The notes beneath the pieces are model-generated. The model had not been told where the DNA came from and searched no databases. It saw nothing but the letters and a program-made list of their open reading frames with translations. This document shows, piece by piece, positions 2,840-60,849 of a stretch of 64,000 bases of DNA. The first letter of the stretch is position 1, and each line of letters begins with the position of its first letter. A program made the position numbers and the translations under genes. Origin of the DNA: Albugo candida (taxonomy: Eukaryota; Oomycota; Peronosporomycetes; Albuginales; Albuginaceae); contig CAJNAR010000163.1 in assembly GCA_905220665.1 (NCBI GenBank), positions 310,001 through 374,000 of the forward strand, in the 5' to 3' direction.

Positions 2840-4919
2840 TCAGAGCCCAATCCAATACGACCTTCCGTTCGGATTATGGATGGGTGAGGTCACCTGCGAT
2901 GTCTTCACGGTCCACTCATACCACACCTTTTGATGCTGCGTCATCCTCCATATCGAGACTTTGATCGTGTCTCCTTGCTCCACCTGAATTGGTTGTCGGA
3001 TCGGAAAATATATCGGGAACCAGCTAAACATTCCGTCGGAATGAGTCGTTGGATTGATACTTAGCATCACATCCTCCAATAACACTGTATCAAAGTACCC
3101 AGCCAGCCCATGAATCACTGATGATTGATCAGCGATAAAATTAAGTTCGATGAATCTCCGATTATCTGGCAATTGAGGCTTATTTGTATCAGATGATCGA
3201 GAAAAGCTTTTGCTCGGGTGTGTGAACGTAAAGCAAGCTTGAGATTCCGCGATCGAGTAGATATTATGCAGTCGAACAACATACGGCGTCTCAAAGTGCT
3301 TCAGCGACTCGAACGATTTCACATCGTTCCAAAGCTTGGATGACATGATCGGTGCAACGTACGATGTGTATTTGCACGGGATGCTGATACCATTTGCTAC
3401 AAAAAGCATTGTAAATGCGGCAGAGTAGAGGTTGATTGTTGCGAGAACGTACGATGTAGGAACGCTTGAGCCCCATCTAAACACTCTGGAGACAGTTCAT
3501 TATCGCTAAAGGACCCCAATAACTCACTGACCATGATATCTGCCTACAAATCACCATTGAGCATGTAGATAAAAACGAACTCAATTCCATATTCTTACTT
3601 TCTCAGTCGCATTCCAAAATCGCATATCGGACGCAATAATTGTGACATTATCCCATTTTTCGGATTCCTTCAAATTACGAAGCGTTATGATCGCATTTGG
3701 ATTCTTCTCAATAGCGTAGACTCGAATATCACGACATGCTGCTGTAGCCGCCCGCAAGCAACAACGAACAATCGGTCCTCTTCCTGCCCCCACAACCATA
3801 ACAACTGGGACTTGTGAGCCTGTGAATCGAAGAAGTGCTTTTTTCACCGCGACTTCATATTGATCATATTTGAAATTATCTTGTTCGAATGTCTCGTACG
3901 TTTGTGACTCCAAATTATCCATCAATGGTTGCAGAGGAGCCTGGAGATAATCCAAGTATGGGGCTTCAAATTTTGCTTTACCATTCAAAGGACTCTTCTT
4001 CTCATGCAGATAATGTATATACTGAACGTACGGAAGGTACGAGCCACGATGAAATGGCTTCCCTTTGAAAAAAAAATGTATCCGAAAATTGAATAATCTG
4101 TCGAGACAAAAGCGTTGATGACATTGCGAAAGCGTTGGGTATCCTTTACGATTCGTCAAAAAGATATCAGTTGGTAGTATGACTGCCTATACAAAATCAC
4201 ATGAGTACACATTTGCTCGGAATCGCATGTTCACGCTTACCCGAACAGGTTCACCCATCCAACGACGCAATTCAGCATCCGACGGTATGTCAGCGCCGAT
4301 TTCTAGGACAATACAAATTTTGGGATTAAAGTCACACAAAGTACGCAAACTGTTCCAAATCTGTCAATACAAAAATTATCATTGGCAACTGACACTTGAC
4401 AACTTTTAACCTTCCAAGAATTTTCCGAGCTGGCCATTGTCGTAGGCGTTTGGATCCAAAACTGTAAGTATTGTGCTTGGATCGCCAGTTGGTTTAATAT
4501 TCGAGCATAATTGGAGCAATCAGTGGTTTTTGGGAACGGAAGCACGACCGCTTGAATTGAAAGATGCGTCGCCCATGCAACCTCTTGTTTTAGTACTTTT
4601 TCAGCGACATTTCGGGTTTGTAGGCAAGTGGAATCGGGGTGTATCCATCGTGATACAACTCCGTAGATCGAAGTGGTCCAAACAGTGGAAGGTACCACGA
4701 GATCCGATCCTAAGGAATTGCATGGATCAGCGCTACTGTATGCATGATGCCGATAAGTAGACGAGCACACTTGCTTGTTGCGGGTCCAAGACGGGCGTCT
4801 GCAATACCAATGTCATCTCTTTTGAATCTGTGAAGGAAGCAGTAGAACGAGTGGAGGAGGCAGCTGAAATGTAGTTATTATAACCGTGGATGAAATAGAG
4901 GTGTCATTAATAGCGACAT
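2840..4919 (-). CDS. PRMT5: Protein arginine methyltransferase 5
   Basis: Seven exons, 4885-4919, 4763-4827, 4411-4709, 4241-4360, 3599-4186, 3453-3543 and 2840-3396, splice in consistent phase through six 50-57 bp introns to 584 residues. PRMT5 makes symmetric dimethylarginine on histones and Sm proteins. Visible landmarks are the N-terminal TIM-barrel part with Leu-Glu-Ile-Gly-Ala-Asp, the junction Asp-Tyr-Leu-Gln-x-[10 protein letters not shown], the SAM loop Val-Gly-Ala-Gly-Arg-Gly-Pro, the double-Glu loop [15 protein letters not shown], and the beta-barrel end Asn-Pro-x-Gly-Arg-Ser-Tyr. The chosen start (ATG at 4919, followed by only 11 codons before a splice) omits about 60 residues of the animal N-terminus, so an extra upstream exon cannot be excluded. 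Confidence 0.95.
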
Positions 4920-7682: not shown

Positions 7683-10145
7683 ATGCGTTCTATCACGATC
7701 GTCAGTCTGCTCTATAGCTCCACTGCTTATAAAACGTGCACTATAAACCCATCGATCCCTACCACTTGCAATGGTTACCAAGGGTGGCAACCAGTCAAAG
7801 TGCAGAACGTTGGGACGTTTTGTGCACTAGGAGACATCTGTGGTGGCTCTAAAAACAAGAGCTGTCCAGAACCGCAGCAAGGTCTTCCCTTTGGCTCGCG
7901 ATGTATGCTGGAAAGCGGCAACTATGAATGTGTAGCTAAAAAAAGCTGTGATGACGATGTGCCCGTCAAAGTACGTCCTCAATGCAAAGTGTCTGTGAGT
8001 CCACCTCCAATTGCAACCACTCCAAATACAGCAATTCCAACAGCTCCAGTAAACCCTGGTCTCTCTCAAGAAAACTCACCACCAAAAAAGATGGAAAATG
8101 TACCGGCTCCACCTCCCAAAACCACTGAGGGTTCGTACTCTCCACCATTTACTCCGTCACCTCCCGGAGCTAATGTCCCAATGACACCAAAGACCGAGAC
8201 GTCGAAAGTACCAGAAGCGTGGCAACCAACTCCACCAACAAAGACCCCGGAAGTACCAAAGACCCCGGAAGCTCCAAAGGTTCCTGAAACCATCAAAACT
8301 CCGACCCCAAAATCTCCAATAACTCCGGATACACCAAAATCGCCGACCCCAGAAGCTCCAAAAAATCCTGATGCACCGAAAGCTCCCTTTACCCCCAGTA
8401 CTCCGGATGCTCCAAAAGTCCCGGACGCATCTAAAATCCCATCTCCAGAAACCCCAAAGGTCCCAGAAAGTGTCAAAACTCCGGATGTACCGAAACCTTC
8501 AACATCAGATGTTCCAAAAACACCTCAGACCCCAAGTGTACCAAAAACTCCGGAAACATCAAACGTCCCACCCACTCCTCCAAGTAGTACCGTACCACCA
8601 CCTCCTCAAAACAAAGAAACTATTCCAGCTCCACCAACTTCCAAGGTACCAGTAAGCTATCCATCGCCTCCTTCAACACCTTCACAAGTGACCCCACCAT
8701 TCAACTTTACAGTTACGAATCCTCCAAAAAATGAAAGCTCGGTACCTTTTGTGCCGTCAAACTCGAATGTACCAACACCTTCTCCGACCCCTTGTTTACC
8801 ATTGCCTCCAATAAAGGCCGAGGATACTCCTATTGTACCATCAGGGAATACAACAAACTCTTCTGTTCCGATCCCGTCGTCAGCACAAAACCCTCCAAAA
8901 AATGAAAGTGGTCTTGCACCTCCTACGGTTCCGTCACCGGCTCCTTCTCCATCTCAACCCACTCCGAAAAATGAAGTGCCGAATGCTCCAAAAAACGAAA
9001 CAAAAGTTGGCGTCCCCGTTTCAGCAAAAAATGATAGCGCCCCAACCCCTCCTGTCGTACCAAAAGTGGAAGTACCTCCTGCTTCAAACAATGAAACAAA
9101 AGTGAGCGTTCCCGTCCCTTCCAAGAATGAAAGTGGGCCTGCTCCTCTTGTCGTTCCATTCCCGACACCAGTTCCATCCCAAAGTCCTCCAAAAGTGGAT
9201 ATTCCCCCTCTTCCAAAAAATGAAACGAATGTCAATGTTCCTGTTCCTGCAAAGAATGAAAGTGCTCCGACACCCCCTGTCGTTCCGATTCCACCTTCTT
9301 CGTATCAAGTACCCAATACCACAAAAAATGAAACGAAAGTAACCGTCCCCGTTTCAGCAAAGAATGAAAGCGGGCCTGCTCCTCCGGTCGTTCCTTTCCC
9401 AACCCCAGCTCCATCACAAAGTCCCCCAAAAGTGGAAATACCTCCTTCAAAAAACGAAACGAAAGTAAACGTCCCCGTTCCTTCGAAGAACGAAAGTGGG
9501 CCTGCTCCTCCTGTCGTTCCATTCCCGACACCTACTCCGTCCCAAAATCCTCCAAAAGTGGATATCCCCCTTCTTCCAAAAAATGAATCAAAAGTAAATG
9601 ATCCTGTTCTTGCAAAGAACGAGAGTGCCTCAATGTCTCCTGTCGTTCCAAAGGTGGAAGTACCCAACCCACCAAAAACCGACAATCCCATCACACCTCC
9701 GGACAGTCCTCTTCCATCGTCTGCTTATGGCCCTCCTCCTGCCCCTCCCCTCTTTCAAAAACCTGAGTCCAACGCGGCCCCACCAGTTCCTGTTCCCAAC
9801 GCCCCGAAACAACTTTCCACTACACCATCCGTCACTACTCCAGTCACTACCCCAGTCACACCTGCGGTAAAGACCGAAACCTCCGCCACCCCTCCGATTG
9901 TTCCGTCTCCATCTTCAGCGTATGGGACTCCATCAGTGCCTCGAACAGTTCCCGTGGCTGCACCCCCAGCATCGCCAATATCATCTCAGAAAATTGAAAA
10001 TGCTCCCACAAATTCTCTTCCTCCAAACAATCAAATTCCTCCCTCCAGAAGTACCCCTGCAACTCCAATCACTGTCCCTACACCAATCTCAGTCCCACCT
10101 ACCAAATCGACACCTAATGGCGCATACGGCCCTTCTGCGTATTAA
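7683..10145 (+). CDS. Secreted Cys-rich/Pro-Lys-rich repeat protein
   Basis: A single 820-residue frame. Residues 1-16 (Arg-Ser-Ile-Thr-Ile-Val-Ser-Leu-Leu...) could be a short signal peptide. Residues 18-100 form a domain with about ten cysteines and no family I recognise. The rest is low complexity. Residues ~120-320 are built on Val-Pro-x-Ala-Pro-Lys-Thr-Pro-Glu type units. Residues ~340-680 use longer Lys-Asn-Glu-(Ser/Thr)-x-Val-x-Val-Pro-Val units containing many Asn-x-Ser/Thr glycosylation sites. The C-terminus repeats Pro-Ser...Ala-Tyr-Gly. Such Pro/Thr/Ser-rich chains in oomycetes are typically wall-associated or extracellular, so a wall or adhesion role is inferred. The N-terminus could change if an upstream exon exists. 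Confidence 0.7.
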   Translation: MRSITIVSLLYSSTAYKTCTINPSIPTTCNGYQGWQPVKVQNVGTFCALGDICGGSKNKSCPEPQQGLPFGSRCMLESGNYECVAKKSCDDDVPVKVRPQCKVSVSPPPIATTPNTAIPTAPVNPGLSQENSPPKKMENVPAPPPKTTEGSYSPPFTPSPPGANVPMTPKTETSKVPEAWQPTPPTKTPEVPKTPEAPKVPETIKTPTPKSPITPDTPKSPTPEAPKNPDAPKAPFTPSTPDAPKVPDASKIPSPETPKVPESVKTPDVPKPSTSDVPKTPQTPSVPKTPETSNVPPTPPSSTVPPPPQNKETIPAPPTSKVPVSYPSPPSTPSQVTPPFNFTVTNPPKNESSVPFVPSNSNVPTPSPTPCLPLPPIKAEDTPIVPSGNTTNSSVPIPSSAQNPPKNESGLAPPTVPSPAPSPSQPTPKNEVPNAPKNETKVGVPVSAKNDSAPTPPVVPKVEVPPASNNETKVSVPVPSKNESGPAPLVVPFPTPVPSQSPPKVDIPPLPKNETNVNVPVPAKNESAPTPPVVPIPPSSYQVPNTTKNETKVTVPVSAKNESGPAPPVVPFPTPAPSQSPPKVEIPPSKNETKVNVPVPSKNESGPAPPVVPFPTPTPSQNPPKVDIPLLPKNESKVNDPVLAKNESASMSPVVPKVEVPNPPKTDNPITPPDSPLPSSAYGPPPAPPLFQKPESNAAPPVPVPNAPKQLSTTPSVTTPVTTPVTPAVKTETSATPPIVPSPSSAYGTPSVPRTVPVAAPPASPISSQKIENAPTNSLPPNNQIPPSRSTPATPITVPTPISVPPTKSTPNGAYGPSAY
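8880..9700 (+). repeat. In-gene repeats (Lys-Asn-Glu units)
   Basis: Within the proline-rich gene, DNA for a unit running from Pro-Lys-Asn-Glu through Val-Pro-Val-Pro-x-Lys-Asn-Glu-Ser to a Pro-Ser-Gln-x-Pro-Pro-Lys-Val spacer recurs several times with small differences (for example near 9100, 9230, 9340, 9460 and 9590). The pattern indicates internal duplication; length variation between strains is likely. Confidence 0.7.
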
Positions 10146-10276: not shown

Positions 10277-12612
10277 TCAACACAATTGTGCTCCATCGTC
10301 GCTATCTTCCAAGTCATCAAATGCGCTGATATGTGCTGCGTGAGACAATTTGTCAAGACCTGTCAATTCTTCCAGATATGTCGCTGAATTGGACGCATTT
10401 TGCAAAAACTCAAAAGCGTTCGAGTGAAAAGCTTCCAACACTTTATCGCTGCATGCAATGCATTTGTCAAAAGCGACTCCCACGACCGGAACGACGCTGA
10501 AGCTGTTTATATAACCACGAAGCTGATGTGGTATGTAGCCTAAAGCCTCTGACGTGTGTTCCACAACGTCTCCTCTTTGGTCGGGTGAATGTAATACTGC
10601 GACTAAAAGTTCCACAGCGTTAGCTGAAGCTATCGGTGCGACGCCAGGACGTGTCACTGTACACATTTGATCGAGTGTGCGATCTCGAAGAGAATTGCGA
10701 GGACCGACGATATCGTTGCAAAAATAGCACCCTAAACGGACACTGGAGGTCCCATCAGAATGAATCGTTCGGATTCCATGACGCATGACCAAATAACTGT
10801 CGAAACCCAATGCTGTATTGATGACAATCTTTTGCTTTGATGCTCCAAGCACAGTTGGGAGCCATCGACTTTCCCGTGAGTCTGTGCCAAGAAATATCAC
10901 ATCATGCGTATCGATGAGACTTTCGAGTTGCGCTAAGCCTTCTTTTGCTTCGCGTATTAGCTCTGTATTGCTGAGGGAATGGCCGGCCATGGGAATGCTG
11001 AGAATTTTTCCTTGAGCATTTACTAATGGAAATATACGCTTCAGTGCAGCTGCGGCGCATTCTGCTTTGGGTTTACCACAATCCTGGAATTCATACAAAG
11101 GCTGCCGAACGGGATTGGAGTAACTAACCGTGGAATTATCGACTAAAGTGATGTGTCGAAATCCCCATGAAAGTAAGCTTCTAGCTGTGAAGCATCCAAG
11201 AGTCCCGGCACCCAAAAGGAGGCATTTCGTGGATGCAATTAAATCGAGTTGAAGCGTGGGTAATTGTCGCCATCGCATCAATTTGAGATTTAAATCAACA
11301 GAAGTCTCTGCGAGACGTAAAGGGTCCATCTGATTGCTCAGATCCATCACCCGGGGTCCAAACTTTCCTCGTTGATTGCATTCCCATCCTACCACATCAA
11401 TATCTTCCAAGTCGGGCTTCATTCGCTCGGGTATAAGTACTCGAAAAATCAACGAATTTGAGAAGTTGTCAAGATTTGTATCGTGACCACAGCCTTGCAT
11501 TCCATGTTCTCGAAAGGAAAAGATCTTCAGTGGTTTTGAGATATCAAGAATCTCGTCGGGTAAGGTGCTGAGGAGGGCTAAATAATTTCGCAGCGGCCAG
11601 CCTGGATGAGAAGGCAAGGCGCACGGATCGACGAATCCGTAGTATACATCGACTTTTGCTTCGTCAAGACCGTGTCGTTTCTGTCGTGTTTGTTGGCTTT
11701 TCCACGTACAAAAGTCATAGACCTTTGGATTCGTGCCTTCTAATTCCGATCCTGAACCTCGAAAGCATTGTATCACAAAATAGGGAACGATTTGCTGCTT
11801 TGTTTGATTCTCGCTATTTGTATATTGCAGATGCATCAGATTCTTAATGACAATCCTTTGCTCCTTCTGCGTGAATTCCGTACTTGCAGGTGTCGGTGGT
11901 TCTGAGATTTGATACGGAGAGGCTGGACACAGCGCAGGGAAGGCGAACCAGTACAGAAATGTGTGCTTTTTGAGTTCCGCAAATGTGCACAGAATAAATC
12001 CGTTCAGTTGCAACGAAAGCGTTTCGATACTGCACGCCGGGTCGGTTATAATCTTCAATATCTACAGATCGGATGAGCGAAATGATAGTAAAGCATCATA
12101 AGAATTTGTGTATACTTTATCTTTGGCCAATTCTAAAAGTTTGCCCTTATCCAATGCTTTGAATTGCTACAAATGTGCGCCAATTAGACCCTTTTTTCAT
12201 ATCATTTGACAAAAGCTTCCCACTTCCAATGTATTGGAGTTATACAAAGTTCCAGCTACTTTCCAATGATATCGCTCCATGTCATTCTCGCTATGTAGCA
12301 AGCAATAAGACGAAGACGAATGATTCGGTGGATTGACACTCACTTATCAAAAGAAAACGAATGAGCATTGACTTTGATCCGAGCCGGAACGTTCGGTGAT
12401 CGGCCAGGACCATAGAATCCAGTAATGGGCTGTACGTTCAAAGTATTGGATTGAGATTCACACTTTAATCGCTGACCGTTTAGACTTACTTGAGGCTCAT
12501 CGTTCAATTGAAACTGATCTACCTTCAATGAAGCAAGCTTATGCCAGAAAGTCGGATCGGCCACACTGCTCCAAGGCTGAAATTGGAGCAAACTCTCCTT
12601 TTTCGATTCCAT
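10277..12612 (-). CDS. ATG7: Autophagy E1-like enzyme ATG7
   Basis: Four exons, 12344-12612, 12224-12290, 12116-12166 and 10277-12061, with introns of 53, 57 and 54 bp, give 723 residues. ATG7 adenylates ATG8 and ATG12 and transfers them to ATG3 and ATG10. The N-terminus has the family opening Leu-Gln-Phe-x-Pro-Trp-Ser-Ser...Pro-Thr-Phe-Trp. Exon 2 encodes Gly-Thr-Leu-Tyr-Asn-Ser-Asn-Thr-Leu-Glu. The E1 domain has Leu-Leu-Gly-Ala-Gly-Thr-Leu-Gly, Asp-Asn-Ser-Thr-Val-Ser-Tyr-Ser-Asn-Pro-Val-Arg-Gln, and the catalytic motif Cys-Thr-Val-Thr-Arg-Pro-Gly with Cys at about residue 596. The C-terminal acidic tail (Asp-Asp-Leu-Glu-Asp-Ser-Asp-Asp) is typical. The gene is convergent with the proline-rich gene, 131 bp away. 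Confidence 0.95.
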
Positions 12613-28486: not shown

Positions 28487-29645
28487 CTAGCACTGAGCAC
28501 CTCGGCGGCTTTTTGCGAAAAACCATTTATTTCGTTTTCTCTCATTCCAGGATGTAGAAAGTAATGCTTTGAAGAAGCAAAATGAGTTTTTTTCTGGATG
28601 TTCTAACGTAGAAGTACGACTAACCCAGCCATGCGCGTCCTTACGACGTCGAGACTGTCGAGTTTTCGAACACGCTTCTCCGAAGTCTCTCACTGGTGTT
28701 CTTCCTATCCCAATCATTGCTGACGCATAATGCACGATGTTGTCGAGCACCTGTTGATTCGCTACACCGCAGGCGTCGCTCACGGCAACCAAGTAGAGAT
28801 AGTGTTCTGGCCAGCTTCGCTTAGGGTCCTTACGCGCCGTAAAGACCTGTATCGACTGGGATGCCGTGAACATGGTCTAGAAAGTCTGCAGTAGCCTTTT
28901 CATGACGTTGCCTAGTGTCGGTATTTGTGTCCACCACACATCCAACTGCTTGTTGTAATACCGTTCTGCGGTGCCGCTCAAATAGTGTCCAAGCAAGTCA
29001 GCTTTGACTTCTTCCGACCAGGCAAAACCGCACGCGTGCTTTGCCGTTGTGACCCGTCTCAGGAACGTTTGCCCCCAGTCAAGGAATCCGGAGCCGAGCC
29101 CATGGTAGAGCTCGCTCCCGTCAAACTTCCTGATTGCCAGCTTTCGCTGACGTGCGTCTGGAACTTGACGCACAGGTCCCGCTGCCTGGTGCTGATGCCT
29201 CTGCTGCGCGGGGAAGCGCTGACCCGGCTTCGCTGCCACGTACTGCGGCCCGAGTAGCTCAGCGTGCACTTCTTGCGCCGGCGACGCTTCTTGTCGCCTC
29301 GGCGGCGAGTTCCCAAGCGCGTTTAGATTCATTGGACCCGCGTTTCCCATGTTTCACCCGATCAAAGAGCTAAAAAGACCGCTCTCGATCGTGCCTCGCA
29401 GTCGCTCGTTCTCATTGATCTGCTTCTGAGACGCTTCCATGCTCTCCATGCGACCTTCGAGCCCCATGAGCATCTTGAGGATCCTTTCGTTTACGTCCGC
29501 GCTCCTTTCGTGGGCTGGCGGGTCGACGACAATGGCAGATGCCAGCATGGCCCTTTCGTGGCCGGTAATTGGCGGCGGTTGGACCGTGTTTCTGGTGTCG
29601 TCGTAGTTTGTACCTGGGCTCATAACCTGTTCGATATAGAATCAC
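28487..29645 (-). pseudogene. Retrotransposon gag relic, GC-rich
   Basis: Three consecutive minus-strand pieces (29354-29645, 28877-29350, 28487-28873) together read like a gag polyprotein. They comprise a helical N-terminal part with Glu-Gly-Arg-Met-Glu-Ser-Met-Glu, then [22 protein letters not shown], and a tail with Arg-Ser-Trp-Pro-Glu-His-Tyr-Leu-Tyr-Leu. They lie in different frames, so at least two frame breaks exist. No zinc knuckle, protease, reverse transcriptase or LTR was found. The DNA around 29040-29350 is clearly richer in G+C than its flanks. Confidence 0.55.
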
Positions 29646-30192
29646 TGTGATAAAAGAATTATGTAAATAGGTTATCCCTGCCTACAGGTCACACACTTTC
29701 TTGCTGGTAAGAGTTCTTCACCAACCAATCGGTTGGTTGTAGCCCTAACGCCTTGTCTATCCTCTGCAAATACCAATGAGCAAAAAAGGTTCTGCCGTCA
29801 GTCGCATTCCGAACCGTTTCGTGTGCTGGTTCTCATTCCTTTCAACAACATATGTGCTACATGATCACGGCCTCTTCTCCGTCTTCACGTCTTACTGTTG
29901 GAATATGGTAAATTTGTGGTCCACGCGACATTGAAATAGTTCAGCCATGGGCGACTTTCCGTCGCTACGACGTCATTGACCGACCGTGCTGTTTGAAATA
30001 GTGCGCGATATTGTGCTTTGTATGCGGACAGGATACATAGGAGTTGAATATGATAGCAGTTAATAAAAGTACATACATTTGTTTGCACCAAAACAAAGAG
30101 GAAGGGGGAATTCATACTTCCATCTCTGCTAACAAAGGCACATTAAAGCTCTCAAACTGCCACTCTCTCGTCACGCCATCCAACCTTTGCTA
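29646..30192. other. Gene-free stretch upstream of MULE 2
   Basis: Probably includes the left end of the second MULE, but no inverted repeat partner was found for it. Confidence 0.3.
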
Positions 30193-51573: not shown

Positions 51574-53772
51574 TCAATTCGCAGGAATACTTGTTGACGC
51601 ATCGGATGCGAAATGCTGAAGGAATTGAATACGTTGTAGCTTTAGTCGTCCCACCAAAAAAGGAACTTGTAGTCCACCATCTTGTCGGCGAAGATATAAA
51701 AGCTCTTTGCTGAGTAGGTGAACATGTGTTGAATCTTTTTTGTGTTTCCGACCAAGCACAAATCGATTTAACATCGATTGCCACTGTCGAATGGTCACTG
51801 CTGGTATATCAACGTGCATCGTGTAATGCCAAAATCGTGATAAAATCATCGTCTGCGCAATCAGTAGTCGACCACGGACAGTTCGTGCTCGTCGAAACCA
51901 TACACCAAACCCATAGTAAAAACACTTGTCAAGAGTTGAAATAACCATCGAATGAGTTGGTTTCTGGCCGAACGGAATACCAAAATACTTGACCGAATCC
52001 TCCGGACCCATTATGGTCAAATTGGGAATACGTGGACACGGCTTGGTCCGATTCAACGAGAGCAAAGATGATTTACTCAAGTTGAGTTTCGCACCCGATC
52101 CATCGCAATAGACTTGGACGAGTTCGAGTTGCGTCAAAACACCATTTGGTGTCTCTGAAAGCAATGTCGAATCGTCCACAAAAAATAATCCAGTTGCGAC
52201 AGTTGTGCCACTAATCCGGAATGCCATGTTCTTCATGTTGACGAAGTAAATTTCCTAAAGGTTCGATCGTCATCAGAAAAAGTAATGCTTAGAGAGGATC
52301 ACCTTGTTTCACTCCACGTTGTGGTGTAATGGACGGTGTGATATTTCCATTAATCATCAACTGCGCCTTTGTGTTATTGTACAAAAGTCGAACCCAGTCG
52401 ATAAAACTTTTTCCAACGCCCATTTTTTCCAAAACGCGAAACATGTACGTCCAATTGACTCGATCATAAGCTTTCTCAAAGTCGAGAAAAGTCGCATAAG
52501 CTTCCTCCCCACGATGAGTGACCAAGTCTTGGATGTCGGTGAGATGTCGAATATGATGATGCATTGACCTTCCGCGCACAAATGCTTTTTGATCTTGATG
52601 GATCAATTTTGGCAAAAACGTTGCAATCGATACGCCAACACTTTTGAAAGTACTTTCACATCGACGCAAAGTAGTGCGATCGGTCGATAGTTGCCAGGAT
52701 CACCTCGTGATCCTTTCTTATATAAAAGTGTGATTGCTGAGTGACGTTGTGATCGAAGTGAAATTCCTCTTTCCAGCTGATATTCGAACACGATCTTCAG
52801 ACATTCGCCAAACGTTTCCGGATCAAGCTGATAAAATGCAGCTGGTAGTCCATCCATACCTGGAGAAGAACTACTCCGCATGTGCTTGATCGCTTCTGCC
52901 ATCGAATCGAGCAATTTTTTTTGCTTTCTTGCACATGGAGCATTTGAGTCGGTCTCTGAGCTATAAAGAGAGCCCATGACACCACCCCAATGATCTCTGA
53001 ATTCGTCAATAATCTCCCTCGGGTTCGATGTCACGGTACCACATTTTTTGATGACATTTTCGATCGGCACGCGACGACAAGAACTATCCGGAGGGCGAAA
53101 AAAATGCTTGGAAGAGGTCTCCATATGCTTCACGTGATGGTAGAAACTTTCATCTTGGTTGTATTTCGCATTGTTTTCGACTGAAATTCGAAATTGTTGG
53201 AGACTCGATTCGTAAAAATACCGTGACTCATTGGTGTCTGGAATGCGATATCGAGCTGCTGCGACTTCCAAAACACGCTGGCTAGACTCAACATCACGTC
53301 GGCTATCTTTTGCAACCTTTTTTTCAATGATTTGAAGCTGTTTCTTCATTTTCGTCTTCCAACATTCCCACATTTTACCGGGGTTCGAAGTTGTCCGTAA
53401 TTGTTCGAGCACCAAATTCGCTTCCCATTTGATTGCTTCGACAACTTTCGGATATTCAAATAACATTTGCAATATCCTCATCCCGGAGATTGAGTTGGAT
53501 TTGTAAAAGTTATTTTTTCTGCCAGATGATCTCCCGCATGTCGTGGACGAAAATACTCAGAGGTTTTGTATACCATATTGAATAGCTCTTCCGACATGCA
53601 GATATAATCAAGTCGATTCTTGCGCGGTAATGGTCCTGTAAATACTTTTTCAGTCGGATGTTGAATTCGCCAAGCGTCTACCACACCCAACTGTGAAAGC
53701 CATTCCAAACACGCTAATCGACTTGGTTCGTGTCGAATTGTTCCACTCGAAGCATCGATAGCTGGATCGCCT
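51574..53772 (-). pseudogene. LINE ORF2 (AP endonuclease-reverse transcriptase), 3' part
   Basis: Motifs in order: Ser-Pro-Gly-Met-Asp-Gly-Leu-Pro (near 52860), Asn-Tyr-Arg-Pro-Ile-Ala-Leu-Leu (near 52690), Phe-Val-Arg-Gly-Arg-Ser-Met (near 52575), Phe-Leu-Asp-Phe-Glu-Lys-Ala-Tyr-Asp-Arg-Val (near 52470), Arg-Gly-Val-Lys-Gln-Gly-Asp-Pro-Leu (near 52310) and the catalytic Phe-Val-Asp-Asp (near 52180). Frame changes near 53480, 52640 and 52250 break it. The family is APE-type, L1/Tx1-like. The endonuclease start is on the far side of the insert, at 60340-60840. Confidence 0.8.
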
Positions 53773-53777
53773 GTGGT
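53773..53777. repeat. Target-site duplication, left (GTGGT)
   Basis: GTGGT here and at 60331-60335 flank the GC-rich insert exactly at the points where LINE sequence stops and restarts. Joining the LINE flanks with one copy agrees with the sequence expected from LINE relatives apart from one extra base. Confidence 0.7.
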
Positions 53778-53822
53778 TATGCCCTCCGCTACCTGCTTCA
53801 ACGTCTACCCAGCTGCCCGCTT

Positions 53823-54212
53823 TTCGCTGCTTGACAGCTGTACTTGCCGTCGCACCCACCGTAGCATTCGACCAGACGTCCGCATGAACCTCGCTACGAC
53901 GTACCCCGCCTACCTGCAAGACGCGAGGCACCTGCCGAGCCCGCACTTCGTTCACCCCGCCTGCCTCTACCCGCTCACTGCAACCCGCGAGGCGCAGGCC
54001 GAGCTCCCGAGTTTTTGAACACGCATGTCTCTGCCTGCTCACTGCAACCCGCGAGGCGCAGGCCGAGCTCCCCTCTTCTTCACCCTCGACCCTTGCTTCA
54101 CCGAACCCGCGAGGCGGCAGCCGAGCTCACCCCGACTTCACCCACGACCCTCGCTCACGCCTCACCACTTGCTCTCGAACCCAGCTAACCCGCCTAACCC
54201 CCTTCTCGCCTG
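53823..54212. repeat. Direct repeat L of insert
   Basis: 390 bp, starting TTCGCTGCTTGACAGC and ending CCCCCTTCTCGCCTG. It is nearly identical to 59387-59772; the one clear difference is 4 extra bases here near 53960. It ends about 100 bp before the capping enzyme start. Confidence 0.95.
53969..54145. repeat. Three-unit internal repeat in direct repeat L
   Basis: A block AACCCGCGAGGCGCAGGCC followed by GAGCTCCC occurs twice, and a shortened form AACCCGCGAGGCGGCAGCC followed by GAGCTCAC once. The same three units recur in the right repeat. Each contains the palindrome GAGCTC. Confidence 0.8.
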
Positions 54213-54313
54213 TGTAGCCTTCGGACAACTACACATTCTTCAGCCACCACAAATCCGCAGTTCTCCTCTGCGGGTCGTTGCAACGGTACAGACTGTGCTT
54301 CGAGGAGCGACGC

Positions 54314-55930
54314 ATGAAGCTAGGCAAGTGGATCTGTAAGGCGCGGCACTACAAACCGGACAACCGTTACGCCGTTGAGTTCGAGTACGCGTCGACATGT
54401 CCGATTACTGACTCCGACAAGATGGAGATCCTTGTAGCGATACACGCGCGCCTCTGTCACGTTGAGAAGTATGCGAAGGTGCTAGGCAAGCAGACGTTGG
54501 TGAGGTTACGCGCTGTCGCTCTACCGGTCAAAGACGTACGCGTGGTCCCGCAGCACGACGTGTCCTATCGCGTGAAGGTAGACGGTGAGCATGCTTGGCT
54601 GTTCGAGGCCGGCTCCATGTGGTACATCTGCCGCAGCGATCCCCACCTGACTGTCGTTGGGTTCCGCGTGAAGTCTGTCCTCGACCTGCTGTCACCGCTG
54701 TCGATGGTACTGCGAGTAGAGCAGCTCCCGGATGGGTCACTCGTGCTCATCGACATGCTCGCGATGGGTGGAGTAGTCGAGCAGACGTCTAGGCCGTACG
54801 ATGCGTATCGGAAGTTGCTGCTCCATCGCTACGTGCCGGACGACCTGGTGATTCGGGAGGAATTCGACTCGCTTGAGCAGGCGCAGGAGTCAAGGCGAAC
54901 AGTGTCGTATGGGTCAGACGGCATCATCGTGGTCGACAAGACATGCTCGCTGACGTACAGGTTGAAGAATCCAACGTTGGACATGCTAAGCGAGCAAGGC
55001 GGCTTGTACGTCTCCGTCAGGGGCAAGCCTTCGAGGCGTGTAGGCGTCGCGTCGAGCAGAATGCAAAGCGGCGTTGTCTACGAGTGCACGATCGAGTCCC
55101 CCTCCAACGGCTTTGCTGCTATCTCGTCCTACGTGTCCAGGACTGACAAGCTTGGCCCTAGCCCCTCGCGCGTATTCGACAACGTGATGTCCATCTTGCA
55201 GTCGACGGATGACTCGGACCTGTCCCTCATTGATCGAGTGTCAGCTTACTCCTTCGCAGTCCGTGCAGCCATGTACGAGTGGACGTCTAATCGCGGATAC
55301 CTTCGAGGGCTTGTCGTCGACGTGGGGACAGGCAGGCTTCAGGCACAGGACGTCATGTTCTCCTGCTCGCAGTGTTCGTACCTGTTCTGCGACCCGCGAC
55401 TCGACCTGACGCACATTAGGACGCAGGTCACGGTGCTCGACGTCACACACGTCGACGCTGCAGCCATGGTGGAGCTCATCCAAGGCCTCTCTAGATCGCG
55501 GCGGTCGTACGCTGGCTACCGAGGCAGGGTTGAACGGCTAATCGCCATGCCCGGTGTGATGCAAGCCCTCAAGCGTAACTACGTCTCGATGATGTACTCC
55601 TTCTCGCTGTCCTACGTAGCGCGTACCTTCAGCCAGCTTGCTAGGTACGGCGTCAAGCAGATCGGCTGCTGCTACGTCTACGACGCTGTCGATGATGAAG
55701 GTGTGCTCGTCAACGTCGGTGGCATACACCTGCGCGTCCATGACAAGGAAGGGAACCGTGCCACTGCGACGTTTGGTGGGAAGGCATCCTTCACGGAGCC
55801 AGCTGTTACGAGGGAATCCTTCTGCGATGGGACGGTTACATCCGCTCTCTCGCTAGCAGGTCTCCAGGGAGATGCAGACCCGAGAATGGCCAGCGTGGTG
55901 CAGCACATCGTGGTGGCGACGAGTTTTTAA
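54314..55930 (+). CDS. mRNA capping enzyme (guanylyltransferase-methyltransferase)
   Basis: Intact 538-residue frame from ATG 54314 (36 bases inside a longer open frame that begins with TTG). Residues 20-70 have Val-Glu-Phe-Glu-Tyr and Arg-rich strands that may be a reduced triphosphatase tunnel domain. Guanylyltransferase motifs are clear: motif I Lys88-Val-Asp-Gly-Glu with the lysine nucleophile, motif III around 138-150 (Leu-Ile-Asp-Met-Leu-Ala), motif IV Ser-Asp-Gly-Ile-Ile-Val at 201-206, motif V Tyr-Arg-Leu-Lys-Asn at 215-219, and an OB-fold start Val-Tyr-Glu-Cys-Thr-Ile near 255. Residues 330-538 resemble a cap N7-methyltransferase: Val-Val-Asp-Val-Gly-Thr-Gly at 334-340, Cys-Asp-Pro-Arg-Leu-Asp near 359, then Tyr-Ser-Phe-Ser-Leu-Ser-Tyr. 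It would cap transcripts made by the neighbouring polymerase. The triphosphatase part is uncertain. Confidence 0.82.
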   Translation: MKLGKWICKARHYKPDNRYAVEFEYASTCPITDSDKMEILVAIHARLCHVEKYAKVLGKQTLVRLRAVALPVKDVRVVPQHDVSYRVKVDGEHAWLFEAGSMWYICRSDPHLTVVGFRVKSVLDLLSPLSMVLRVEQLPDGSLVLIDMLAMGGVVEQTSRPYDAYRKLLLHRYVPDDLVIREEFDSLEQAQESRRTVSYGSDGIIVVDKTCSLTYRLKNPTLDMLSEQGGLYVSVRGKPSRRVGVASSRMQSGVVYECTIESPSNGFAAISSYVSRTDKLGPSPSRVFDNVMSILQSTDDSDLSLIDRVSAYSFAVRAAMYEWTSNRGYLRGLVVDVGTGRLQAQDVMFSCSQCSYLFCDPRLDLTHIRTQVTVLDVTHVDAAAMVELIQGLSRSRRSYAGYRGRVERLIAMPGVMQALKRNYVSMMYSFSLSYVARTFSQLARYGVKQIGCCYVYDAVDDEGVLVNVGGIHLRVHDKEGNRATATFGGKASFTEPAVTRESFCDGTVTSALSLAGLQGDADPRMASVVQHIVVATSF

Positions 55931-56130
55931 AACATGCTAGCGGCGCTTAGGTAGCGCGATGACGTAGGAACGCTTGCCTGAGGGTGGGTTAGCTGGCCCT
56001 GCTGGTTGAGGCTCTGAGGTCTCGACGCTTTGCAGGGAAGTCTTAGCCGAGAACTCGGAGGGAGCGACGTCCTCGGGGTCCTGGTCTGGCTCCTAGTGTT
56101 CGACCGACTCCTTCTCCTCGACGTTGACGT

Positions 56131-57660
56131 ATGCAGGCGACCTCGATCACAGCGAGACGCCTGCATACGTATGAGCTGAGTGAAGTCGACAAGCTGACTC
56201 TGCAACTGGCGAGGAGCAACACGTCGATGTCTCAGTATGCGGTGAGTCTGCGCAACTGCATTTCGGGGAAGCGTGGGTGGCTCAAGTACGGCTGCATGGG
56301 ATTTACATCGCTGGGCACCGCGAGAGGTGTCGCTACGTGCGTCTGGACCGATCCCTACTTCGAGGTCTGGCTACCTTCTCGCTGGGCGGAGAGGATGATG
56401 GTGCCCATGCGCTTGGAGGAAGGCGAGTACACGTCTCCATACTACAGCTGGCGGAAGGTAAGGGAGGGAGACTACGCAATCTTGTCGCGGTGCCCTGTCC
56501 TCTCGCATGAGTCTGTCAGATGTGTACGTCTACGGTTCTGGAACGAACCAGCGATTGGAGTGCATCCGGAGTACTGTGCACCGCTGAACCTGGACTTCGA
56601 CGGTGACGAGGTGCATGTGTCCATCGTGACGGGCAAGCGCTGTAAAGATGAGGCTGAGGCGAACATTCGTCTCAACAGGCTGTCGAAGTTTAGTCGCGAG
56701 AAGGTGGCAAGCGCACTAGATGCATCAGGCTTTGACCGGTCTTCCCTGGACACTGGGTGCATCGACTTCATGACTCTGTCCACGCTCAGTGCCGCTCAAG
56801 ATGTAGACCTCGTGCAGATGACGCCGATCCACGACCTGTCCCGTTGCAAGCGTGCTCAGTGGATTGGATTGTCGTCGCACCTTCGTAGCAGGAGGGCGAG
56901 GATGCAGACATTCGTGCAGAGGTGCACTGACAGCGTTCACGACTTGACCGAGAGTCATATACGCGTCTCTGAAGGGTTCACGGTGGGTCGGCAGCTCAAG
57001 CACGTCTTGTTCCAGACGGAGACGTCTCAGCAGGGGACGGTAACGCAGTGGGTCGCCCAGCCCGACAGACGTCGCCTCAGAGTGCAGGGCCCCTGGTGCT
57101 CGGTTGGGCAGTACGGCTTTCCCGGGACGAAGCTGTCCTCGCACGTCTCTGGAGCCATTCAGCAGGCACTCATGGACAAGGCTAAGCATGGAAAGGGCTC
57201 CGAGACGTCCGGTTTGCTGCTCTCGCTGCTCACGGGAAAGTGCTCATTCTTCGTCACCAGGGATGCCAGTGGCAGGCTAGACGTTGAATCGGGTGATCGG
57301 ACACGCGGCGTAGCAGTTGCTGCTCTTAACAGGTCCGACATCGCACAGCTTAGCAGTCCCGCTGACAGGTTCTCACGCTGCTTGCTCGCTGTGAAGCTGG
57401 GCTGCCACCTGTCGCACATCGAGGCGTCTGAGACAGAGGTAGCCGAGTTGACTCACGCTCTGTTCTGCGCAACATACGTCGACTCCGACGCTGCAATTGC
57501 TGACTCGCTGAACGTCAACTTCCTGTCGAAGACGTACTCTCCCGCCCTGCTAGCCGCTGCCTGCGACGACATCTACTCGCTTGACGGTCGCCTCTCCCGT
57601 CCCGCTTACTCAGCCTACCTCGACGAGTGCCAGGTCGCATGTCCAGTTGCGTCGATCTAG
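56131..57660 (+). CDS. RNA polymerase beta'/largest-subunit-like protein
   Basis: Intact 509-residue frame, 200 bp downstream of the capping gene. Residues 70-160 reproduce the largest-subunit core: Asp-Pro-Tyr-Phe-Glu-Val-Trp-Leu-Pro-Ser, Gly-Asp-Tyr-Ala-Ile-Leu-Ser-Arg-Cys-Pro-Val-Leu at 113-124 (the Asn-Arg-Gln-Pro-x-Leu equivalent), and the metal-binding Leu-Asn-Leu-Asp-Phe-Asp-Gly-Asp-Glu-Val with Asp155, Asp157 and Asp159 in place for catalytic magnesium. The clamp domain that normally occupies the first several hundred residues is missing, and the rest (160-509) is too diverged for me to place the bridge helix or trigger loop. The length and reduced layout recall split or minimal viral polymerases. 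It is likely to need the beta-like partner encoded on the opposite strand. Confidence 0.8.
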   Translation: MQATSITARRLHTYELSEVDKLTLQLARSNTSMSQYAVSLRNCISGKRGWLKYGCMGFTSLGTARGVATCVWTDPYFEVWLPSRWAERMMVPMRLEEGEYTSPYYSWRKVREGDYAILSRCPVLSHESVRCVRLRFWNEPAIGVHPEYCAPLNLDFDGDEVHVSIVTGKRCKDEAEANIRLNRLSKFSREKVASALDASGFDRSSLDTGCIDFMTLSTLSAAQDVDLVQMTPIHDLSRCKRAQWIGLSSHLRSRRARMQTFVQRCTDSVHDLTESHIRVSEGFTVGRQLKHVLFQTETSQQGTVTQWVAQPDRRRLRVQGPWCSVGQYGFPGTKLSSHVSGAIQQALMDKAKHGKGSETSGLLLSLLTGKCSFFVTRDASGRLDVESGDRTRGVAVAALNRSDIAQLSSPADRFSRCLLAVKLGCHLSHIEASETEVAELTHALFCATYVDSDAAIADSLNVNFLSKTYSPALLAAACDDIYSLDGRLSRPAYSAYLDECQVACPVASI

Positions 57661-58205
57661 GACGCGGCTAGACGTACCCGTCTCAGCAGGCGAGAACTCT
57701 ACAGCGCGGTTCAGCGGAGGCGATCCGATGTCGGTGACGTCGACAATCTGCATACACTTCAGACTGAACGCGATCGTCCGCTTGCCTGTGATGCTGAAGT
57801 CCGGCGTCCTCTTGAGCGTCACCTCGACGGCCAGCACTCCAATCACATTCTGCTTGAGGTTAGCGATCGCCGCTTGCAGGTTCATCTTCTCGTCGCTTAA
57901 CAGCCTCGCCTCACCCCTCTCGTTCCTGATCACAGCTGCTGGATGGAAGCCGCGTGTAATGTTCGCAGTGATCCACATGTAGTCGTTCGCCTCAGTGTCG
58001 CGCAAACCGGGACCTGCTTCCTACCCAATCTCCTTCAGGCGAGACACCATCCACTCGTACCGCTGCACAGGCACACCGATCGACGCGTACGTCACCATGT
58101 AGCACGGCTTCGTCCCTGTGACAGCGTTAATCCTTGCCGACTCCACGCCGATGTTGCGACGATACTCCACGATGCCCCCGTTCAGGCAAACCAAGCTAGT
58201 CATCT
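57610..58205 (-). CDS. Two minus-strand frames separated by TAG, unknown
   Basis: Between 58280 and 57610 one minus-strand frame is open except for TAG codons near 58204 and 58021, giving a 60-residue piece (58021-58203, starting ATG immediately after the first TAG) and a 131-residue piece (57610-58005, ending TGA). The residues look like real protein (for example Asn-Arg-Ala-Val-Glu-Phe-Ser-Pro-Ala-Glu), and the frame continues the sequence following the beta-like frame. They could be the beta subunit C-terminus interrupted by mutations or readthrough stops, or two small genes. The conserved His-Gly-x-Lys-Gly motif of beta subunits was not seen. The 3' end overlaps the beta'-like gene by 51 bp. 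Confidence 0.4.
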
Positions 58206-58288
58206 ACCCGGTGTCCCACGCTACGCCCACTTGCAGCATGTACGTCGGCTTCGTCACCCCCTGCAACCGATCTGCGATGTCCTTCTCG

Positions 58289-59158
58289 TCAGCCGCAACC
58301 ATGTACGGCACTCCACGTTCCTCGAGATAGCCTTTTCGATACCCTCTCTCGCAATACGGTGGCGTCACAGTGTGGGCGGAACCAGGTGTCCGACGCCGTA
58401 ATCTTCGAGCCTGGTCGCATCGTCGCTGTCCCCTCCGACACAGGGTGGTAGACGATCGATCGAGTCGGGAACAAGCCGTCCACGTTGACCCGCTTGCTGA
58501 CGACTATGCCATCCTCGTAGTTGTGACGCATGTTCGCGAAGACGACGAGAAGGGGAATGCCTGGGACGGAGAGCGGTCTGTCGGTTGGAAGTTGCTCGAT
58601 GACTTGCTGCATGAAGGGTGTTCGAACGACGGGAAGGTAGGTCGCAGTCGAGGCAATCGTCGACGTCAACTCGACACGTGGTTTGCAGATCGCTTGCGTG
58701 CATATGGACGATGCGAGGCCTGGTCTCGGTGGCTCATCGTCGGCGAAGAAGGGGAAGAGGTGGAAGAGCGTACGGCTGTTGTCGCGGATGTCTGCGCGAG
58801 AGGCTCTCGGGACGCCAGTGAGCAAGAGCAGCATCGCAGGTGTGTTGTAGCAGAGCGAGTCGACCCATGCGAACCCGCTGGGTGACAGGCAGGGCACACG
58901 CTTCAGCAAGCAGCCGGACATAGCGTGAAGCAGGACAACCTTTGCGGGCTCGAAGACGTCTAAGCTGGGAGCGTTACGCGAGTCAAACGTTCGCCAGGTG
59001 GACAGCAGAGACGTTACGCAAGCATCCGAGATTCGAACAGACTTCGACGAGAAGCAGAAAAGCCAGGTCTTCTGTTCCGCCACACGAGCGTCTTTGTGCA
59101 CCTCGCCGAGTAGCTGCCGTGTCTGCTCACACGTCTCAGCGGTGAAGCATCTGTACAT
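58289..59158 (-). CDS. RNA polymerase beta/second-largest-subunit-like fragment
   Basis: A 289-residue frame from ATG 59158 (a GTG at 59170 and an open stretch after TGA just upstream also exist). It carries the second-largest-subunit segment: Phe-Phe-Ala-Asp-Asp-Glu-Pro-Pro-Arg-Pro, Leu-Pro-Val-Val-Arg-Thr-Pro, and the strongly conserved Asn-Tyr-Glu-Asp-Gly-Ile-Val-Val-Ser-Lys-Arg followed by Asp-Gly-Leu-Phe about 210-230 residues in. Near 58330-58370 the sequence makes better sense in another frame (Glu-Arg-Gly-Val-Pro-Tyr-Met-Val), which suggests a frameshift. Both the lobe/protrusion half before it and the hybrid-binding His-Gly motif after it are missing or unrecognised, so this is either a split subunit or a decaying gene. 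Confidence 0.7.
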   Translation of the reverse strand: MYRCFTAETCEQTRQLLGEVHKDARVAEQKTWLFCFSSKSVRISDACVTSLLSTWRTFDSRNAPSLDVFEPAKVVLLHAMSGCLLKRVPCLSPSGFAWVDSLCYNTPAMLLLLTGVPRASRADIRDNSRTLFHLFPFFADDEPPRPGLASSICTQAICKPRVELTSTIASTATYLPVVRTPFMQQVIEQLPTDRPLSVPGIPLLVVFANMRHNYEDGIVVSKRVNVDGLFPTRSIVYHPVSEGTATMRPGSKITASDTWFRPHCDATVLRERVSKRLSRGTWSAVHGCG

Positions 59159-59170
59159 GCAGCCGTGCAC

Positions 59171-59386
59171 GACGGAGCGAATGCGTCCCGCTTCCAGTCA
59201 GTCGCGGGAGGAAGCAGTGCAGAGGGAGGGCGAGTAGCTGCAGGCCCAGCTGTGAGAGTCGACGCAGGCAGTGCTAGGCCTTGAACTACTCAGCAAGAAT
59301 AACCGTTGGGGCGTGTGTGATGCATAGCGCTTCGCACTTAATTTTTTTCAGCGACCAACGTCTCTCAGCCAGTACGTCTCGTGTGC
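59171..59386. other. Spacer between beta-like frame and repeat R
   Basis: Short GC-rich spacer that changes to an AT-richer stretch (TTAATTTTTTTCAG near 59339) just before the repeat. It could hold the beta-like promoter, but no motif is established. Confidence 0.3.
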
Positions 59387-59772
59387 TTCGCTGCTTGACA
59401 GCTGTACTTGCCGTCGCACCCACCGTAGCATTCGACCAGACGTCCGCATGAACCTCGCTACGACGTACCCCGCCTACCTGCAAGACGCGAGGCACCTGCC
59501 GAGCCCGCACTTCGTTCACGCTGCCTCTACCCGCTCACTGCAACCCGCGAGGCGCAGGCCGAGCTCCCGAGTTTTTGAACACGCATGTCTCTGCCTGCTC
59601 ACTGCAACCCGCGAGGCGCAGGCCGAGCTCCCCTCTTCTTCACCCTCGACCCTTGCTTCACCGAANCCGCGAGGCGGCAGCCGAGCTCACCCCGACTTCA
59701 CCCACGACCCTCGCTCACGCCTCACCACTTGCTCTCGAACCCAGCTAACCCGCCTAACCCCCTTCTCGCCTG
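59387..59772. repeat. Direct repeat R of insert
   Basis: 386 bp, near-identical to 53823-54212, with a 4-base deletion and one undetermined base (N at 59666). Its right end includes the last ~17 codons and the stop of the gene at 59722-60297, so the left repeat carries a copy of that gene's 3' end. Sequences outside the two repeats differ, which rules out a simple circular or tandem source unit. Confidence 0.95.
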
Positions 59773-60297
59773 GAAGATGTCAGACCTGGCCCGGTAGTCG
59801 CGCACAGTCTTCAACGTCTGACCATCAATCAGAGGCACCGATGACTTGCTTGTACGCTGAAACGCCTCCATCAGGTACGCGTCTTGCAGCACCTTCGGGA
59901 TGGGGATTGGCGGCTTCGAATTCGCAGCGAGGATAGAGAGAACCCTCGTAAGTGCGTTGAATCGATCAGACAAGCCCGACTGGTAGCTCCGGCACTCCCT
60001 GCTTTCGACTGCATCCCTTACGCAGGTGACCAGTCCGATGATCATCGCGGAGAAGAGTTGCATGTTCTGCGTGTACCTGAGTCCCCGCGTTGGGCCGTCC
60101 CCGCACACAGATGTCTCTGACCCCGCTGTTGAGACGAAGTCTGGTGCACACCTCCCAGGCGACACATCCACCAGCGCGTACTGGATGTCTCTCGTCCTCG
60201 TCTCCAGATCCGCTAGCCTGTCCATGATGCGCTCCTGTGTCAACGAGATCTTGCTCACCAGCGTCGATATCTTGCGAATCTCGTTCCTCGCCGACAT
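59722..60297 (-). CDS. Unknown coiled-coil protein of the insert
   Basis: 191 residues from ATG 60297 (33 bp inside the right boundary) to a TGA within direct repeat R. Residues 1-45 form heptad-like helix (Arg-Lys-Ile-Ser-Thr-Leu-Val-Ser-Lys-Ile-Ser). The remainder has Asp-Arg-Phe-Asn-Ala-Leu-Thr-Arg-Val-Leu and Pro-Ile-Pro-Ile-Pro but no domain I recognise. GC-rich like the rest of the insert. The open frame runs on into the LINE endonuclease upstream by chance of the junction. Real ancestral gene may have been longer and cut at the insertion boundary. Confidence 0.5.
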   Translation of the reverse strand: MSARNEIRKISTLVSKISLTQERIMDRLADLETRTRDIQYALVDVSPGRCAPDFVSTAGSETSVCGDGPTRGLRYTQNMQLFSAMIIGLVTCVRDAVESRECRSYQSGLSDRFNALTRVLSILAANSKPPIPIPKVLQDAYLMEAFQRTSKSSVPLIDGQTLKTVRDYRARSDIFQARRGLGGLAGFESKW

Positions 60298-60330
60298 GTG
60301 AGCAGATCGTCCCACACACATGCTGCAGGA

Positions 60331-60335
60331 GTGGT
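60331..60335. repeat. Target-site duplication, right (GTGGT)
   Basis: Second copy of the 5-bp flank. The bases outside the duplication, on the LINE side, continue the endonuclease frame up to its Phe-Gly-Asp-Phe motif. Confidence 0.7.
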
Positions 60336-60849
60336 GTGTGAAATCACCAAATACAATATGTGTTGCGGTCGATTTAAAAGTGTTGGAGAGCAATAACTCA
60401 TAAAAACCCACTCGTTCCTCGGCCGTGACCGGTGCATATACATTGTGAATATACACCGGTGCATCGTGAATGAGAAGACGCAAAACCAAATAACGATTTT
60501 GAATGCTTCGTTCGGTGAGTTCTTCAGCTGTTGAGTAACCGGGAAAGTCCGAACGAAGAATTGTCATGACGTCGCCACTGCGGTTTTGAGTCGGATGGAG
60601 AAAAGCACTGTTGTGATCATTGACAAACATTTTGTGCTGCTTTTTTGAGGATAATAAAAACTGAAATGAGTACAGTTGGTTGTGATCGTGAAACTTGGTT
60701 TCTTGAACACAACAAATGGAGTGTTGTGATAGGATGTGGTCGATAAAAAGATGACCATTTTTATGAATTCCATCAACATTCACCGTGAGTGCTGAGATAT
60801 TGTTCCACGTTGAAATAATCGAGGAGCCCTTAGCAGTCAAGCTGAAGTG

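Follow-up and report, generated by a model that had tools for sequence, protein, structure and literature searches.

A 6,560-bp block of foreign DNA inside a long interspersed nuclear element (LINE) of the oomycete Albugo candida is a mosaic of cut genes, a dead nuclear fossil, that encodes part of the largest RNA polymerase subunit (beta') and appears to encode parts of an mRNA-capping enzyme and of the second largest subunit (beta). We consider it likely that the block consists of end-joined fragments of an undescribed linear DNA element that transcribed itself and had separate beta and beta' subunits. The window, the whole 64,000-nucleotide stretch that was analysed, comprises bases 310001–374000 of contig CAJNAR010000163.1 (label C161), and positions are given within it. 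The host genome searched comprised 38.9 Mb in 196 contigs; it yielded 20 elicitin matches over the family cut-off (21 in all), while none of 14 control genomes yielded any. A life style based on an element's own polymerase and capping enzyme has been described mainly for giant viruses and for yeast killer plasmids. To our knowledge, small DNA elements that combine a capping enzyme with a multisubunit RNA polymerase have been described from few lineages.

The block occupies positions 53770–60329 and has a guanine plus cytosine (GC) content of 59.3%, against approximately 44% in the adjoining LINE sequence. Its left flank (51574–53769, minus strand) is the reverse-transcriptase side of the LINE (RVT_1, E 1.6e-12), and its right flank (60330–60840, minus strand) is the endonuclease side, with a weak Exo_endo_phos match (E 0.0038) under the cut-off. 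The genome contains 19 copies of the LINE without the block, the 19 left-flank and 19 right-flank matches all being paired. Base-by-base comparison of four of these empty sites (L031–L034) revealed that position 53769 joins 60330 directly; the four copies are 94–97% identical to the left flank over 269–277 bases and 91–96% identical to the right flank over 273–280 bases. At the junctions of the window insertion we found neither a target-site duplication nor a deletion, only a one-base ambiguity (G). The insertion is blunt, and the lack of duplication and deletion favours end joining, by which the block was likely captured, over both LINE-type copying and integrase-type insertion. LINE-mediated copying of the block was considered and is disfavoured by a site without duplication. 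An earlier note on this stretch, made by a model from the letters, had placed a sharply bounded GC-rich block at 53778–60330 within a LINE; its bounds were right to within 8 bp, and the presence of such a block is confirmed.

The firmest gene identity in the block is RNA polymerase beta'. The piece, which is cut at both ends, lies at 56167–57660 on the plus strand (listed open reading frame (ORF) 56131–57660), and its assignment is backed by Pfam (RNA_pol_Rpb1_2, E 2.8e-10), by the PDB and by fold. The predicted model resembles giant-virus subunits in BFVD, and the VIA comparison covers mainly residues 107–341. PHROGs and NCBIfam returned weak largest-subunit matches, to beta' alone among the block's proteins. 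The protein has a double-psi beta-barrel catalytic core with the Rpb1-type motif DFDGD, and towards its N-terminus the family has a conserved CxxH..C.GHL stretch, which we take to be the clamp zinc site of Rpb1.

Each of our three protein searches scored the best ~8,000 candidates. The search with beta', which covered 5.8 billion proteins, gave at least 11 matches, of which ten (P0001–P0010) were kept as a family; P0011 was left out as reading, to judge from its sequence, like a more ordinary subunit. The window piece is identical at 477 of 496 residues to P0001 (604 amino acids (aa), 96% identity, 14 member sequences), spanning residues 93–588 of 604, and lacks about 92 N-terminal and 16 C-terminal residues. 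Identity to the window piece is 71% for P0002 (604 aa), 43% for the 605-aa P0003 of the chytrid Lobulomyces angularis, 42% for the 547-aa P0004 of the downy mildew Bremia lactucae and 27–36% for the six further members. Beta' is a separate protein of 594–605 aa in seven of the ten relatives and of 509–547 aa in the other three. Beta' matches outside the window are 31–68% identical to P0001, and every match across the A. candida genome holds at least one stop, which in the window copy falls at its end.

The second gene piece, at 54269–55930 on the plus strand (listed ORF 54278–55930, 550 aa), is a 5'-truncated mRNA-capping enzyme, an assignment that we make with moderate confidence from an ordered chain of motifs. 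Its relatives among the scored candidates are P0012–P0015. Over residues 180–732 of P0012 (732 aa, 95% identity) the window piece is identical at 524 of 553 residues with no gap or stop; it lacks about 180 N-terminal residues and reaches the natural C-terminal end. P0013 (733 aa) is 63% identical, P0014 from the downy mildew Peronospora belbahrii is a relative of 484 aa, and P0015 (756 aa, 31%) was the sole new relative from a capping-profile search, which missed P0014. The motif chain was found in order in three of the four relatives and in none of 20,000 shuffles of P0012, while P0014 and the window copy have no match to motif VI and fail the strict chain. The triphosphatase part is represented by an ExE motif alone, and the triphosphatase-guanylyltransferase-methyltransferase set, a trait of the yeast virus-like elements (VLEs), is putatively present, by motifs only. 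Comparator capping enzymes were sought in nine records, one of which matched, below the cut-off; by hhalign the ORF of that record was a weak match. Two PDB matches to the capping profile (E 0.47 and 1) were unrelated and were rejected, as was the outcome of the single-sequence search, and a structure predicted from the four sequences (predicted local distance difference test score 36) was not used.

The putative beta piece lies at 58289–59198 on the minus strand (listed ORF 58289–59170, 293 aa). A Pfam search with it gave no match, and a profile of the window piece with its decayed paralogues gave three matches in the PDB at E <= 10, all to RNA polymerase beta (E 0.024, 0.27 and 0.29). Motifs and this weak profile together point, with moderate confidence, to a piece of beta.

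Comparison with the other copies in the genome revealed how the block is put together. Homology stops in the window at approximately 54269, 56167, 57657, 58326, 59198 and 59772, and at these points other copies begin, end or go on differently. The segment between the capping and beta' pieces (55931–56166) has no match among the family loci compared. The GC-rich segment at 57658–58325 is overlapped by an ORF on the minus strand (57610–58005, 131 aa) that has no family match and that, searched against its own genome, gave itself and two 22-residue matches. Region Y (59773–60306, minus strand) is a piece of a further family-conserved region common to the C22, C166 and C172 copies. The order of pieces in the window differs from that in other copies: C22 and C172 have beta', then ~2.6 kb without assigned function, then an inverted Y, followed in C22 by a gap and beta. 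The beta piece is on the opposite strand to beta' in the window and stands apart from beta' in C22. A Pfam scan of three decayed-copy pieces and two window pieces from regions without assigned function gave no match; in the decayed copies these regions contain short conserved segments for which no identity was found.

Sequence of the family occurs in about 27 separate places in the genome, the window included, a lower bound that leaves out LINE-only matches and the two 22-residue matches. Stretches of ~0.8 kb or more are found in C8, C22, C142, C153, C166, C172 and C175, the larger ones decayed, and the remaining places hold mostly fragments of 45–500 bp. In protein sequence the window block is 95–96% identical to its closest relatives, which makes it the youngest large piece. 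The decayed C166 copy (L036) also contains a 581-bp inverted duplication (3396–3976 and 4246–4826, 97% identity).

These results bear unevenly on the earlier note. A capping enzyme, a beta'-like protein and a beta-like fragment were all recovered, at the strengths given above. Its "self-transcribing cassette" is not supported, the block being dead and made of truncated genes. The compact, split layout that it described is not a genome layout and is in part a product of fragmentation, although beta' stands as a separate protein in the relatives.

The block also contains two direct copies of a repeat, R, both on the plus strand: R1 (53823–54269), a fragment whose right end we propose to be a physical genome end, and R2 (59198–59772). 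Over 390 bp the differences between the two are an indel of 4 bp, a base beside it and a single N. Queried with the outer part of R, the genome gave nine matches, R1 and R2 among them, and eight of the nine lose similarity within 13 bp of each other (window 54257–54269) and then run into eight different sequences. Such clustered ends suggest the trimmed ends of a linear molecule, since breaks at random points of a longer or circular molecule would be scattered; a circular genome is disfavoured on these grounds. R is found upstream of two genes: of the capping gene in C8, where the first residue seen is 15, and of beta' in C142 and C175, where the first residues seen are 1 and 22. The side of R that faces the gene is the same in all three, and C8 and C142 share 635 bp at 71% identity in the R region. 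A position upstream of both genes is as expected from inverted terminal repeats of ~0.8–1 kb, and R has the appearance of a linear genome's terminal inverted repeat. In C154 (548598–550247, L022), nine short pieces of R in both orientations, at 78–98% identity, make up about half of 1.65 kb.

Stop-free relatives are present in public sequence for both beta' (~600 aa) and the capping enzyme (~730 aa). The longest contig is 13.1–25.9 kb for seven of the 14 family proteins (P0002, P0003, P0005, P0006, P0007, P0009 and P0013) and 2.6–7.2 kb for five (P0001, P0008, P0010, P0012 and P0015). Within the first group it measures 17.9 kb for P0002, 17.6 kb for both P0007 and P0013, and 25.9 kb for P0003, from a Lobulomyces assembly. 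The other two, P0004 and P0014, are on large contigs (5.3 Mb and 103 kb) and are presumably integrated. The longest contigs suggest that the genome of the free element is ~18–26 kb in size.

A beta' tree was calculated from 146 columns of the catalytic core in 26 sequences. Of 12 IMG/VR sequences, called giant-virus-type from sequence alone, nine were kept and three dropped as near-duplicates of L062; three of four phage loci were used. These four loci came from a scan of IMG/VR with alignment A3, and their matches, of 42–43 residues at the catalytic motif, were rejected; by their ORF lists, L038–L040 are phage contigs with bacterial-type subunits, and in L041 the catalytic-core stretch alone was examined. 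The ten beta' proteins group together as one clade (UFBoot 100), whose stem measures 1.96 substitutions per site. Its neighbours are P0011 (support 69) and then the IMG/VR sequence L069 (22), and it lies apart from the three host polymerases, the phages and the other eight kept IMG/VR sequences. In this tree, whose deep support is weak, the family is a clade of its own outside the host Pol I, II and III. The host largest subunits (L054–L056) have the same double-psi beta-barrel catalytic core, but they are three ordinary genes with open frames of 1,440–1,851 aa. Grouping with nuclear Pol I/II/III or with bacterial polymerases, which the earlier note had named as evidence against its view, was not seen on the weakly supported deep branches of the catalytic-core tree. 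Its suggestion of a foreign, endogenised lineage agrees with what we find in the LINE, a transcription-encoding element that matches none of the families open to a full test.

Together these observations are best accommodated by a model in which fragments of a linear double-stranded DNA element were joined end to end and captured in the LINE by end joining. The free element would carry terminal inverted repeats of ~0.8–1 kb, with the capping gene at one end and the beta' gene at the other, both reading inward, and with a separate beta and further genes between them. Its own beta plus beta' polymerase would transcribe its genes apart from the nuclear transcription system, and its own triphosphatase-guanylyltransferase-methyltransferase would cap its mRNAs, as in yeast VLEs and poxviruses. 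Fragments would sometimes reach the nucleus and be joined into broken chromosomes. We infer a linear genome with the repeat at both ends and with capping and beta' genes on one molecule; an extranuclear life and transcription by its own enzymes are suggested for the free element by analogy.

Several points weigh against this model. No single contig with both capping and beta' genes was seen outside the window mosaic. R lies upstream of the capping gene in a single copy (C8), so that the two-end arrangement is compared across different decayed copies. Four of the eight clustered R ends come from a single locus (C154) and perhaps do not count as independent; the ninth copy, R2, stops 57 bp earlier; and the query was the window, whose junction at 54269 caps similarity, so that the weight rests on the copies differing from each other beyond that point. 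The analysis, which included no systematic capsid search, found neither a DNA polymerase nor a helicase, terminal protein or capsid, and the protein-primed DNA polymerase family PF03175 had one distant match in the genome, in C4, a contig without a family copy. The beta identity depends on the E value of 0.024. The window capping enzyme had no fitting match in Pfam or the PDB even at E 10, and hhalign comparison of the family capping profile with L080, a giant-virus-like ORF, was weak (probability 6.8%, E 0.0053, 33 columns). The beta' tree combines its 146 columns with very long branches and weak deep support. Scans of IMG/VR with the window beta', the beta' alignment and the capping alignment gave no relative, and neither did prokaryote genome contigs. 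Finally, the sole ambiguous base of the window, an N at 59666, lies inside R2.

An outlying VLE from a host group new to these elements, whose beta/beta' fusion had yet to arise or had since been lost, would share the same functional set. VLEs (pGKL2 and its kin) have their own RNA polymerase and capping enzyme on linear DNA with inverted terminal repeats, a genome form known there (PMC6211774) and inferred for the oomycete element, and their polymerase, capping enzyme and helicase associate mutually and with the element DNA (PMC6211774). However, VLEs fuse beta to part of a reduced beta' that is missing most of the clamp, and the fusion is required there, as a yeast element with a divided beta-beta' gene could not replace the normal one (PMC6211774), whereas the oomycete family has a separate beta' of ~600 aa in seven of ten relatives, with the CxxH..C.GHL stretch. 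VLEs are also ~74% adenine plus thymine (PMC6211774), and PMC10328495 gives cytoplasmic linear plasmids as known only from Saccharomycetales; the oomycete block has 59% GC, and its kin occur in a chytrid and in downy mildews. Of the VLE proteins, the terminal protein, the protein-primed polymerase and the helicase were not seen here. The oomycete family would work like the yeast elements and, by the descriptions of VLEs, falls outside them on fusion, composition and host. We regard membership in the VLEs as unlikely.

We also think it quite improbable that a giant virus (Nucleocytoviricota) left the block behind, in the manner of the asfarvirus-like insertions known in Phytophthora. Published insertions of this type in Phytophthora and Pythium relatives include RNA polymerase genes (PMC8204020), the family shares the Rpb1-type beta' with DFDGD, and the beta' model matches giant-virus subunits. 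L069, a tree neighbour of the family, comes from a record that also holds a capping-enzyme-like ORF, and the giant-virus-like L080 has capping motifs in the same order. Yet in the tree with its weak deep support the family forms its own clade on a long stem, not among the other eight kept IMG/VR sequences, and its beta' of ~600 aa is about half the length of the vaccinia chains (1,250–1,285 residues). The insert is made of short fragments, the longest contigs measure 13–26 kb for half of the family proteins, though contigs can be fragments, and the IMG/VR scans were negative. The record with L069 and L080 (IMG/VR 3300046454_001203, 17.2 kb) contains, as judged from sequence, an Rpb1-type subunit, a ~600-aa capping-enzyme-like ORF and an adjoining helicase-like ORF.

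We think it very improbable that the block is an assembly artefact in which free-element sequence was misjoined to the LINE. A blunt join, the 390-bp repeat and the N would fit such an error, and closest relatives with 95–96% protein identity mean that the library could have included a free element. Against this, the family occurs in ~26 other places of the assembly, the larger ones decayed, which indicates that capture was recurrent, and the junctions at 54269, 56167, 57657 and 59198 either coincide with ends of the 390-bp repeat or fall beyond them. A Polinton-like virus of the Gossevirus group with acquired polymerase and capping genes is very improbable: these viruses integrate in oomycetes, measure 14–40 kb and can show terminal inverted repeats when integrated (PMC7805220, PMC12220804), but the window insertion is blunt, without the duplication of integrase-type insertion, and the text of PMC7805220 contains neither "RNA polymerase" nor "capping", while PMC12220804 lacks "capping" and has "RNA polymerase" only in a reference.

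Elsewhere in the window, an 820-aa ORF at 7683–10145, rich in proline, serine and threonine and with a cysteine-bearing N-terminal part, looks like a secreted wall-type protein. A 593-aa ORF on the minus strand (10277–12058) resembles, to judge from its sequence, the autophagy E1 enzyme ATG7, and a second, smaller GC-rich stretch (28501–30000, 54%) holds an ORF that looks gag-like.

Returning to a linear self-transcribing element as the source of the block, its relatives in oomycetes and at least one chytrid point to a living family of small elements, probably linear, and the fossils show that this oomycete lineage met such elements repeatedly. We rate it as somewhat better than an even chance that they constitute a new lineage, of family level or higher, of linear self-transcribing elements or viruses of ~18–26 kb that live in oomycetes and chytrid fungi. 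Such a lineage would have beta and beta' as separate subunits, its own capping enzyme, inverted terminal repeats and inward-facing genes, and would repeatedly leave end-joined fragments in host chromosomes. Among the titles and openings of abstracts listed from the open-licence literature, we found no description of such elements in oomycetes or chytrids, and the abstract of PMC10640383 reports that no double-stranded DNA virus of fungi was known at its time. If real, the lineage would be the first small system of this kind beyond budding yeasts, either a sister to the VLEs or an independent origin of their life style. The transcription genes of VLEs have been argued both to have a poxvirus-like origin (PMC6211774) and to have been captured independently of giant viruses (PMC10328495), and the oomycete family would provide a second data point for the debate on how small elements came by such genes. 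With a beta' much shorter than the cellular one, it may also offer biochemistry a beta/beta' polymerase of very small size. Should a free form turn up in downy mildews, these important plant pathogens would have a DNA element that is unnamed in the literature we found.

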